Shown: one piece after another, positions 11,986-33,008 of the stretch | How positions within the stretch are numbered: position 1 is the stretch's first letter | How the letters are laid out: each line of letters starts with the position of its first letter | NCBI GenBank assembly: GCA_944326735.1 | Contig: CALVFC010000002.1 | Span: forward strand, 1-43,136 | Length of the DNA stretch: 43,136 nucleotides | Source of the DNA: an uncultured Limosilactobacillus sp. | GTDB lineage: Bacteria > Bacillota > Bacilli > Lactobacillales > Lactobacillaceae | Reading direction: 5' to 3' | Notes under the pieces: generated by a model | Seen by the model: the letters and a program-made list of their open reading frames with translations, nothing else | Told to the model about the DNA's origin: nothing | The model's database searches: none | Made by a program: the position numbers and the translations under genes

Positions 11986-12019
11986 TAAAAAATCCCTACT
12001 TGAGCAAATCAAGTAGGGA
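11986..12019 (-). terminator. Riboswitch expression-platform terminator
   Basis: An 11-bp stem TCCCTACTTGA/TCAAGTAGGGA with a 5-base loop and a T6 tract sits between the purine aptamer and the permease start. Confidence 0.9.
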
Positions 12020-12030
12020 ATCATCGATTT

Positions 12031-12096
12031 GCTTATAGTCCAGAGTTTACGGCTCTGGGTAGAAACTCGCCGACCATATTACGGCATTATATAGGC
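12031..12096 (-). ncRNA. Purine riboswitch, guanine class
   Basis: The minus strand carries the conserved three-way junction core: TATATAATGCCG, ATATGG, GTTTCTACC, GCCGTAAA and GGACTATA. The specificity base is C (GACTAT, not GATTAT), which marks the guanine/hypoxanthine class. The P1 arms pair at 12090-12096 and 12031-12037. A terminator follows, so ligand binding should lower expression of the permease. Confidence 0.93.
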
Positions 12097-12110
12097 AGTT
12101 AGTGTTTGTA

Positions 12111-12139
12111 ATCCTATCACCTGACGCCAGTTCATGCAA
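12111..12139 (-). promoter_or_regulatory. Promoter of the riboswitch/xanthine permease transcript
   Basis: TTGCAT and TAGGAT are separated by 17 bases and lie just upstream of the aptamer. Confidence 0.55.
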
Positions 12140-28208: not shown

Positions 28209-28493
28209 AAAAAAGTCCCTTAGCCAAATTACTTTGACTAAGGGACGCTTGAGCGTGGTACCACCCTATTTTCGCGTTAACATTGCTGCTAACACCTTGC
28301 ACGTACGGCCAACTGGCGATACGCAGACGCGATAATGGGCGTTTACCATTGAATCTTACTAGGGTTAAGATTCAAGCTCGAAAGTGATTTTCTGTTAAGC
28401 AGGGAACTATCTCCTTTCACCAACCGAGACTCGCTAAAAGTTATCACTTAACGTACTCTTCTTTCTCATTGCGATCGAATAATTAAATTTGAT
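28209..28493 (-). ncRNA. T-box riboswitch of brnQ (Ile specifier)
   Basis: The minus strand shows the core AGGGTGGTACCACG at 28254-28267, and GTTAAG/CTTAAC above the specifier loop. The loop has AGTA on one side and AGAAAATCA on the other; the ATC codon is at 28386-28388. A terminator of about 14 bp lies at 28209-28246, ending in T6. The TGGT bulge fits a tRNA with discriminator A, as in tRNA-Ile. Confidence 0.92.
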
Positions 28494-31144: not shown

Positions 31145-31412
31145 TTTTCTGGTTCGCTCCCTCGCCGGGACTTCTACTGCAACATAGTCGAAATGTGCTC
31201 GGCCTAAGCTCTCCTAATGCAGCTGAGTCGAAATGTGCTCGCGGATTCTAATGCAACTGAGTCGAAATGTGCTCGCCGCTTCTACTGCAACATAGTCAAA
31301 ACGTGCTCGGCCTAAGCCCTTAGTGTCTAGCTACGTAAGGATACTTGATGCGCTTCGCACCTCAAGCACCTTACTAGGCTAGCCATACAGGGCTTTTAAC
31401 GGCCTCGCACTC
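31145..31412 (-). repeat. Mosaic 3' element, copy 1 (downstream of the SteT-like gene)
   Basis: In gene orientation it starts GAGTGCGAGGCC, sharing its first G with the TAG stop of the permease. A long nested hairpin follows (outer arms GGCC/GGCC and AAGCCCT/AGGGCTT at 31389-31404 and 31309-31320; inner arms GTAAGG/CCTTAC at 31335-31340 and 31369-31374). Four 29-base modules then lie at 31280-31308, 31246-31274, 31212-31240 and 31172-31200. A related copy follows potD at the right end of the window. Function is unknown. Confidence 0.75.
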
Positions 31413-32743
31413 TATCTCATCCTATGCTGATCCATCCGCTTAACCGCGTACAGAATTGGCAAACCAACCACGACAATCCCGATGAACAGGACAACTCCAG
31501 CCGGGTCATTCAAAATTTCACTAATCAATACGAAGACCCCACCGGCAATCGCAATCAATGGTACCCATGGATAAAGCGGGGTACTAAATGGCCGTGGTCC
31601 TTGATTACGCCGCCGCAGAATAAAGATTCCGAAGAAGGCTAGTAAGTAGAAGCAGTAAACCGTGAAGACACACAGGTCCGAAAGGTGATCTGGGTCAAAG
31701 AAGAACATCATCACCGTTGCCAAAGCCACGATGAATAGGGTAGCAACGACTGGCGACTTCCCTTTAGGAGTAACGTACGACAGGAACCGCGAAAATGGTA
31801 AGTCACCACGCCGCGCCATTGCGTACACAATCCGTGGGAAGGTAATCATTTTACCGTTAAGGGTCCCCATCATCGAGATGATAATACCAGCCGAAAGTAG
31901 CTTTCCACCGATATTACCGAAAGCCTTAACGGCGAGGTAAGCAGTTGCGTTTTCGCCCAGCCGATGAATTTGGTTAGCAGGCAAGAATTTAAGGATCCCA
32001 ATTGTAATCAACGTATAGATAACCAGAACTGCTGTAATCCCAATCACAATGGCCTTGGGTAACAGCTTTTGTGGGTTCTTCATTTCACCACCAAGGTTGG
32101 CAATTAAAATCCAGCCATCGTAACCGAAGAGGGTGGCTAACACGGCAACCCCGAAACCACCCGTGGCGTGTTGGACTTCGGTCACGGTTTGACCAAAGGC
32201 GTGTTGATTACCCCAGAACAAACCGAAGATGATAATAGCTGCAATCGGAATCATCTTACCAGCAGTGGTAATGATGGCGAAGATCGCCCCGACCTTGTTT
32301 TCTAATAAGTTCATAATTCCGATGGCCAGCACAGTGATCACTGCTAACGGGATCCGCCATTCGGTACCCAGGCCAAAGAAGTTTGCCATCAGGATACTCA
32401 TGAAACCAGCGACCGAAGCAATGATAGCTGGGCCGTAAACAATCACCTGCATCCAGCCGGCCAAGAAGCCGAGTAGGCGACCATAAATATTTTCAATGTA
32501 AACGTAGAGACCACCAGTGTAGGGCATTTGCGAACCAATTTCGGCGACCGTTAAACCACCGGTTAAGGTGATCACCCCACCAAACACCCAGGCCGCAATG
32601 GCGAGTGTTGACGTACCGGCACTATCTAAGACCGATCCTTGTTTGAAAAAGATTCCAGAACCGATAATCGTCCCCACGACAATCGAAATTGCCGACCAGA
32701 AGCCCAGCGACCGTTTTAAATCTTCTTTAGGTTGCGTATTCAT
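31412..32743 (-). CDS. APC-family amino acid permease (SteT-like serine/threonine exchanger type)
   Basis: The 443-residue protein (ATG at 32743, seven bases after GGAGG) has about twelve membrane segments and LAT-branch APC motifs. These include the TM1 signature SIVVGTIIGSGIFFKQGSVL, then GGLTVAEIGSQMPYTGGLYVYIENIYG, and RGDLPFSRFLSYVTPKGKSPVVAT. The Bacillus SteT exchanger for serine and threonine belongs to this branch. Independent support for serine comes from the leader ORF upstream, which contains seven Ser codons. The gene's stop codon merges into a repeat element. Confidence 0.83.
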   Translation of the reverse strand: MNTQPKEDLKRSLGFWSAISIVVGTIIGSGIFFKQGSVLDSAGTSTLAIAAWVFGGVITLTGGLTVAEIGSQMPYTGGLYVYIENIYGRLLGFLAGWMQVIVYGPAIIASVAGFMSILMANFFGLGTEWRIPLAVITVLAIGIMNLLENKVGAIFAIITTAGKMIPIAAIIIFGLFWGNQHAFGQTVTEVQHATGGFGVAVLATLFGYDGWILIANLGGEMKNPQKLLPKAIVIGITAVLVIYTLITIGILKFLPANQIHRLGENATAYLAVKAFGNIGGKLLSAGIIISMMGTLNGKMITFPRIVYAMARRGDLPFSRFLSYVTPKGKSPVVATLFIVALATVMMFFFDPDHLSDLCVFTVYCFYLLAFFGIFILRRRNQGPRPFSTPLYPWVPLIAIAGGVFVLISEILNDPAGVVLFIGIVVVGLPILYAVKRMDQHRMR

Positions 32744-32770
32744 CCTCATTCCTCCATTCAAATTTGGCAT

Positions 32771-32837
32771 AAGAAAAAGCCGGATCCACTGTTAACCAAA
32801 TGGTGTTCGTTGCCAAATGATTAAGTGAACCCGGCTT
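32771..32837 (-). terminator. Attenuator terminator between the leader ORF and the SteT-like gene
   Basis: Arms AAGCCGGGTTCAC and GTGGATCCGGCTT form 13 pairs (two wobble) around a long loop, followed by TTTTT. It lies inside the leader, before the ribosome-binding site of the permease. Confidence 0.8.
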
Positions 32838-32872
32838 CTTATTAAACCGTTTTATAAGTACACTAAAACCAC

Positions 32873-32944
32873 TCAGCCTCGGATAGAGCTAGAGGCTGAG
32901 GAAGAAGATTGTTGATTAAAGTTTAAGTTAAAAGTTAACATCAT
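32873..32944 (-). CDS. Serine-rich leader peptide of the SteT-like gene
   Basis: A 23-residue frame starts ATGATG, with AGGAGGAG four to seven bases upstream, and ends in TGA. Residues 11-20 read QQSSSSASSS: seven Ser codons (TCT, TCT, TCC, TCA, TCT, AGC, TCT) in eight positions, from several Ser tRNA families. The Ser codons overlap the 5' arm of a perfect 9-bp hairpin (32892-32900 with 32872-32880) whose 3' arm covers the end of the frame. A terminator follows. This is the classic layout of ribosome-mediated attenuation, here apparently for serine. Translation is inferred. Confidence 0.75.
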   Translation of the reverse strand: MMLTFNLNFNQQSSSSASSSIRG

Positions 32945-32979
32945 AAATCTCCTCCTAGGTACTTACTTGATTGTAAATT

Positions 32980-33008
32980 AGAATATCATTAGAAAAGTTA
33001 AAATGCAA
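32980..33008 (-). promoter_or_regulatory. Promoter of the serine-leader/SteT-like transcript
   Basis: TTGCAT and TATTCT are separated by 17 bases with a TG extension before the -10. The transcript would begin about 29 bases before the leader ORF. Confidence 0.75.

Follow-up and report, generated by a model that had tools for sequence, protein, structure and literature searches.

A short, serine-rich open reading frame (ORF) that precedes an amino acid permease gene in a Limosilactobacillus genome very probably belongs to a ribosome-mediated transcription attenuator of the his/trp type that senses charged tRNA-Ser, as judged from sequence comparison and RNA folding. The ORF lies in a stretch of 43,136 nucleotides, referred to here as the window. 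A sequence-only reading of this DNA had proposed a serine leader-peptide attenuator for a SteT-like permease; comparison with relatives strongly supports the core of that idea, but the antiterminator that it put forward is not conserved. Sister leaders with other sensor codons were found before other permease genes of the Lactobacillaceae.

Results

Anatomy of the leader

The leader, about 250 nt long, is on the minus strand; a HAD-type phosphatase gene (33673-33023) precedes it and the amino acid permease gene (32743-31412) follows (Table 1). Direct reading and the ORF list bore out the previously described 23-codon ORF with its Shine-Dalgarno (SD) sequence and seven Ser in eight codons. Among the 23 SD-led short-ORF starts in the window, only this ORF, which has two nested ATGs, has seven Ser within eight codons; the 20 first-order Markov windows that served as a chance control for the Ser run contained no stretch of at least seven. 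The perfect 9-bp hairpin that had been read from the letters, with the Ser codons as its 5' arm and the ORF end as its 3' arm, is present (CUCAGCCUC/GAGGCUGAG), and folding confirmed a terminator with T5 followed by the permease, though a simple terminator scan with loops limited to 3-8 missed it. The region 32743-32990 folds at -78.3 kcal/mol versus -50.7 ± 4.5 in 200 shuffles (z -6.2). The promoter claim held in part: by eye the site is of the extended -10 type, but it is absent from the output of a strict promoter scan of the window. Of the 48 Ser leaders, 36 have TATTCTAA at most 60 nt upstream of the ORF. A TTCTAATGRTATTCTAAT-like stretch at the promoter (window 32980-33000) is seen again upstream of Ser and Thr leaders whose genes are unlinked, and the likeness of this stretch among leaders is greater than the -10 box requires.

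Table 1 Positions of the permease gene and of the leader elements in the window
Feature	Position	Strand	Basis or remark
Probable promoter (TTGCAT, 17-nt spacer, extended -10 TGA-TATTCT)	32980..33008	-	By eye
Outer helix P0, 5' strand, just before the leader SD	32957..32966	-	Pairs with 32854-32864
Shine-Dalgarno AGGAGGAG of the leader ORF	32949..32956	-	Direct reading
Leader ORF, 23 codons and TGA stop, MMLTFNLNFNQQSSSSASSSIRG	32873..32944	-	ORF list and direct reading
Sensor, codons 13-20, TCT TCT TCC TCA GCC TCT AGC TCT	32885..32908	-	7 Ser in 8 codons
Segment 1: P1 5' arm CUCAGCCUC, within the Ser codons	32892..32900	-	Hairpin and covariation
Segment 2a: P1 3' arm GAGGCUGAG, contains the stop codon	32872..32880	-	Hairpin and covariation
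Segment 2b: antiterminator 5' strand GCUGAGUGGUU	32867..32877	-	Folding, alignment
P0 3' strand, partly reused in the outer antiterminator	32854..32864	-	Folding, alignment
Segment 3: antiterminator 3' strand AAUCAUUUGGC, near the apex on the 5' side of the terminator	32812..32822	-	Folding, alignment
Intrinsic terminator hairpin with U5	32774..32840	-	Folding; region -35.6 kcal/mol
APC/LAT-type amino acid permease (SteT-like)	31412..32743	-	SD GGAGG 32751-32755; ORF list, profile and structure matches

The permease matches PF13520 (8.7e-60), its best NCBIfam model is TIGR00911 (L-type amino acid transporter; 196.3 bits, below the cut-off of 701.8) and the nearest solved structures are 9h76 and 6f2g. 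It is 98% identical to the permease of Limosilactobacillus frumenti. We chose ATG 32743 as its start; the ORF list also has an in-frame ATG upstream at 32770, just behind the terminator. On the strength of the PF13520 match and the L-type relatives, the predicted protein is a member of the SteT/LAT-type APC exchanger family, so that the SteT-like label given to it before is fair at the family level, with the L-type model below its cut-off, but is not a statement about substrate.

Conservation of the serine run

A single scan for the permease's relatives yielded 132 confirmed places, 79 loci of which were kept and, together with the window, gave 80 upstream regions. We scored as a leader any SD followed by an ORF of 12-40 codons with at least four Ser (or at least four Asn/Asp) in nine codons, within 300 nt before the gene. 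Such leaders were present in 51 of the 80 regions (48 Ser, 3 Asn/Asp), and among 2,883 control windows from other parts of these loci, most of them coding DNA, 30 also qualified. The other 29 regions, which belong to more distant or sister permeases and include one locus whose contig ends inside the gene (L052), had none. Neither the letters nor the length of the Ser run is constant (SSSSASSS, SSSSTSSS, SSSSSSSSS), and UCN codons occur alongside AGY codons. A set of 30 non-redundant Ser leaders has 611 codons, of which 196 encode Ser (TCN in 165 cases, AGY in 31), and 21 of the 30 leaders use both codon families, which argues that the amino acid rather than one RNA sequence has been kept. The Ser-run peptide is kept in place and length, and its N- and C-terminal residues vary freely.

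In a quick tree of 99 permeases, all 44 Ser-leader rows fell on one side of one branch (SH-aLRT 89), next to a Limosilactobacillus permease group (pontis, kribbianus and others) without the leader. This tree left out the Ser loci L007, L024, L042 and L044 as well as L073, all five because their translations, begun at the recorded start of the match, ran into an early stop; of the additional Weissella and paralogue loci it included only a selected 24. Homologous leaders lacking an ORF or Ser enrichment, the observation that had been named in advance as a refutation, were absent from the permease clade concerned. The alignment across relatives called for by the same reading indicates that the leader ORF, Ser run, competing helices and terminator are kept; by this comparison, an SD-led ORF with a run of Ser codons, the first requirement of an attenuator, is present and conserved. 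Relative to the window, a 1-nt change in the loop shifts the frame of the ORF in L007, L009 and others, and both frames run into a TGA inside CUGAGUGA (..GGC TGA in the window versus ..GCT GAG TGA in L007), the RNA arms being unchanged and the arm supplying stops in two frames.

Competing helices in the leader RNA

Two helices enclose the codon run: in P1 the Ser codons pair with the end of the ORF, and in P0 bases before the leader SD pair with bases after the stop. On alignment A3 (23 Ser and Thr leaders), P1 has 93.2% of its cells paired and 14 two-sided changes; none of 500 shuffles was as high in paired cells or score, and slid registers reached 24-44%. Taken together on alignment A2 (19 leaders), P0 and P1 show 21 two-sided changes, where shuffles give 9.3 and none of 500 is as high, and 82.6% paired cells versus 30-47% in slid registers; five pairs have a two-sided change, a count that 277 of 500 shuffles reached. 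P0 alone pairs 67.6% of cells on A2. When the arms of each leader were compared with dinucleotide shuffles, complementarity reached 0.05 or below in 17 of 33 leaders for P1 and in 13 of 33 for P0; the window on its own gave p 0.005 for P1 and 0.075 for P0. P1 as tested is missing in the three Weissella leaders of this 33-leader set (L069-L071, p 0.63-1.0), and P0 is weak in several Lactobacillus leaders and in L069. Other clades keep the P1 pairing in changed letters (CUCAACC/GGUUGAG, CUCAAG/CUUGAG). Hairpin 1:2 of an attenuator is present over the codon run.

The arm at the ORF end, read through the stop codon, can alternatively pair near the apex of the terminator, on its 5' side. This antiterminator consists, in the window, of GCUGAGUGGUU/AAUCAUUUGGC, extended by AGUG/CACU, ACU/GGU and CGGUUU/AAGCCG, and its region folds at -24.5 kcal/mol versus -35.6 for the terminator region; in other clades it becomes GGUUGAGUGA/UCACUUAACC, with changed letters and the pairing kept. 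Paired cells amount to 87.7% on A2 and 92.2% on A3, versus less than 50% in slid registers. Column covariation is modest, with two-sided changes in 5 (A2) and 4 (A3) cells and shuffles reaching the percentage in 15 and 26 of 500, respectively. Complementarity within leaders is better evidence: the duplex has -13.3 versus -8.3 kcal/mol when shuffled, at 0.05 or below in 24 of 33 leaders (p 0.10 for the window alone), and together with the placement of the duplex this evidence is strong. Swapping arms between species gave duplexes nearly as good (-14.4 versus -16.2) because both arms are conserved, so this test does not discriminate for the antiterminator. The antiterminator first suggested for this leader, a CCGAGGCT-like arm paired with AGCCGG, did not survive the comparison: AGCCGG occurs in 2 of 19 aligned leaders and in 4 of 48 Ser leaders, and we rejected this site for the conserved one on the apical terminator 5' side.

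We then folded the leaders with a simulated ribosome that masks 15 nt downstream of the A site. For a ribosome at the first sensor codon or at the middle one, all 33 leaders had the antiterminator in their minimum-energy fold, at a mean energy z of -2.6 versus shuffled downstream RNA. Shuffled downstream RNA formed at least 6 antiterminator pairs in 53% of cases, with weaker energies, so that this lenient 6-pair threshold alone proves little. With the ribosome at the stop the antiterminator formed in 0 of 33 leaders because its arm is masked. The leaders contain a competing antiterminator 2:3, and a terminator 3:4 stands before the gene, with a hairpin and a U-rich run in the 28 leaders folded for it; a hairpin followed by a U-rich run was also seen in all 25 folded Thr, Asn and Weissella Thr/Ser leaders.

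From this arrangement we infer translation of the ORF, stalling at its Ser codons, read-through on serine shortage and serine transport by the permease. When serine is plentiful, the ribosome would reach the stop codon and cover the ORF-end arm, and the terminator would form. When Ser-tRNA is short, the ribosome would stall on the Ser codons and block P1; the freed ORF-end arm could then pair with the 5' side of the terminator, and RNA polymerase would continue into the permease gene. An untranslated leader would terminate by default, since P0 and P1 together would hold the whole antiterminator strand.

The same folds bear on a different reading, in which the upstream ORF (uORF) senses a general slowing of ribosomes by a drug or another stress and its Ser codons are merely incidental slow codons. 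The leaders of ermC and ABC-F genes contain uORFs that respond to slowing by a drug, and they share the uORF and terminator layout; moreover, some antiterminator pairing is already favoured in free RNA in 17 of 33 leaders. However, the clear leaders that we opened stand before amino acid permeases, and each permease type goes with its own run (Ser, Thr+Ser or Asn), an amino acid logic that we know of in no drug leader. We regard general slowing as improbable.

Sister leaders with other sensor codons

A covariance model built from 19 Ser leaders alone (R1) matched 21 of 301 Lactobacillaceae genomes, eight of them twice. For seven of these eight, the second match is a Thr+Ser leader (LTSTSTTTT or similar) upstream of a different permease. 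In one genome (G221) the Ser leader was the weaker of the two matches, and one opened match (L157, E 0.03) had no leader ORF. The permease behind the Thr+Ser leaders belongs to PF00324. Among NCBIfam models it scores best with ThrP ('bifunctional threonine/serine APC transporter'), at 553 bits where the cut-off is 850, and this target fits the codons of its leader. A Thr leader was present in only 9 of 60 upstream regions of ThrP-like permeases.

A more inclusive model (R2), built from 23 Ser, Thr and Weissella Thr/Ser leaders, matched 54 places in 33 of 35 genomes of a Limosilactobacillus genus sample, with two places in 21 genomes; R2 contains several of the leaders that were opened, so close relatives are recovered by construction. 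Among the 28 loci opened from this survey, 19 carry Thr+Ser leaders with ThrP-like genes and nine carry Ser leaders. Eight of the nine were labelled SteT-like by the script, and the unlabelled one (L268) has the same leader peptide as the SteT-like locus L024. In 395 genomes of the order, R2 matched 11, all already in the family sample; because weak matches are lost under the stricter filters of the R1 family run and the R2 order run, the restriction to part of the Lactobacillaceae is provisional. Beyond the two permease types, the opened R2 loci included no third kind of target, except for the unlabelled L268 and a weak match, L184 (E 0.36), which lies before a gene for a PTS_EIIC_2 membrane protein. 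The short ORF at L184, MTNFNTNIINNALLLNLLLI, has six Leu codons in eight and may be either chance or a Leu leader.

Weissella carries two close relatives of the window permease. By the script, 30 Weissella loci (L110-L139) comprised 16 with Asn or Asn/Asp leaders, three with Thr/Ser leaders and 11 with none, including one (L125) in which an Asn run is visible. Three of the 16 Asn loci are L069-L071 or near-identical to them. The Asn peptides include VNNNNNND and FMNNNNNR, and two leaders (L110 and L111) mix Asp and Asn. The three Thr/Ser leaders (L135, L138 and L139) are on the second Weissella paralogue, and L084, L158 and L160 are further Weissella Thr/Ser leaders. A third model (R3), made from six Asn leaders, matched 18 of 28 Weissella genomes at E <1e-12; besides these, it matched a second piece in G012 (4.6e-8) and, weakly, further places with E values of 7e-4 or more. 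In G012 (C18:190351-191547) the Weissella Asn-leader permease is found only as pieces in different frames and has perhaps decayed. The Thr+Ser and Asn leaders would act in the same way as the Ser leader, each on its own downstream permease.

These sister runs also speak to the idea that the UCU/UCC tract is a CU-rich anti-Shine-Dalgarno sequence or a structural element of the RNA and the Ser run its by-product. The window fold does pair the tract with the leader SD, but the runs are equally homogeneous in other letters, such as ACC TCC ACC TCA ACC ACA ACA for Thr and AAC AAT AAT for Asn, and AGY codons occur in the 21 Ser leaders noted above, which makes such an element very unlikely.

T-boxes and riboswitches

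An Rfam scan of the leader gave no family at threshold, the best sub-threshold match being CopA (E 0.28), and we rejected a T-box or other Rfam family at this place. The sole T-box of the window is at 28238-28478 (minus strand, 110.6 bits), upstream of a gene for an amino acid carrier that we take to be of the BrnQ branched-chain type; its specifier is perhaps CUU, Leu. With the Ser leader, one window therefore holds both kinds of regulator on amino acid carriers. The same window has a purine riboswitch aptamer at 12016-12114 (minus strand, 70.3 bits). No T-box was found before the 20 leaderless SteT-like relatives scanned (of 29). When 20 of the 60 ThrP-like upstream regions were scanned, T-boxes appeared in two (L219 and L224). 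Both read GAA-A-ACU-A-CC where the Rfam consensus has GAA-a-UUC-a-CC, so their specifier is read as ACU, Thr. As read from sequence, a Thr specifier before ThrP-like orthologues is a hint of specificity independent of the leader peptides, and it means that T-box and leader peptide swap on one permease family. In the Bacillus cereus group, the orthologue of SteT (ykbA) is preceded by a Thr T-box according to PMC2494555 (Wels and others).

That T-boxes sit on two orthologues of the second permease is the one point in favour of explaining the Ser leader itself as a T-box or another tRNA or metabolite riboswitch; given the outcome of the Rfam scan at the leader, we hold this to be highly improbable. 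Still less credible is a functional small Ser-rich peptide with independent hairpins, which would suit a run kept in place and length but not termini that vary freely or a stop frame that differs between the window and L007 while the RNA arms stay. The exchange of Ser, Thr and Asn codon runs fits each of these four alternatives less well than it fits attenuation.

Discussion

The leaders of the enteric his, trp, leu and thr operons consist of an SD-led short ORF with a sensor run, helices 1:2, 2:3 and 3:4 and an intrinsic terminator. The leaders described here resemble them in the SD-led ORF, the codon run, the alternative helices and the intrinsic terminator, but differ in the host family (Lactobacillaceae), in their target, a transporter, and in their Ser and Asn codons. 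In its available part, PMC3766115 gives His, Leu, Thr and Trp attenuator motifs in Rfam and also Ile/Val and Phe, does not list Ser or Asn, and describes the targets as mostly biosynthetic enzymes.

Several systems in Firmicutes come close, as far as the accessible portions of their reports describe them. The Leu-rich ilvD leader attenuator of Staphylococcus aureus (PMC5794164, which cites predictions in Lactococcus and Streptococcus) likewise combines a leader peptide, in the same phylum, with a terminator and a proposed antiterminator; it differs in its Leu/Ile codons, its biosynthetic operon and an antiterminator said to act on the poly-U. The His leader before hisS paralogues of bacilli (PMC2965389, to its knowledge the first regular leader peptide in Firmicutes) is also a regular leader peptide and replaces a T-box, but has His codons and a gene of the tRNA synthetase family. 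The B. cereus group T-box mentioned above similarly places a SteT-family permease under amino acid-specific transcription antitermination, but through tRNA binding and without translation. The sinR gene of Bacillus subtilis (PMC3862929) again takes the speed of ribosomes at UCN Ser codons as a serine signal, but one that acts on the yield of its own coding sequence, without a leader or terminator. PMC11109978 deals with uORF motifs of Corynebacterium and Streptococcus. None of the literature matches listed, which are open-licence papers and leave absence unproven, describes a Ser, Asn or Thr leader peptide in lactobacilli. We regard the system as a known mechanism whose specificities are new and whose sensor codons are exchanged, unusually, on a single scaffold.

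We favour, by a narrow balance of probability, a broader reading in which one attenuator scaffold was copied between unlinked transporter genes and recoded, as Ser for SteT-like permeases, Thr+Ser for ThrP-like permeases and Asn for the Weissella SteT-like paralogue. The sensor codons would then read out the transported amino acid, and Ser and Asn would join the known leader-peptide specificities. This reading concerns a bacterial family in which T-boxes usually do the amino acid sensing; PMC3766115 and PMC2965389, in the portions that we cite, describe leader-peptide attenuation as chiefly a matter of proteobacteria and of biosynthesis, its role in Firmicutes being taken by T-boxes. Conserved Ser, Thr+Ser and Asn leaders on transporter genes of lactobacilli would widen the range of amino acids that are sensed in this way. 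Their sensor codons would directly predict the substrates of orphan permeases, and the leaders would provide gut lactobacilli with a simple switch for serine or threonine that can be tuned.
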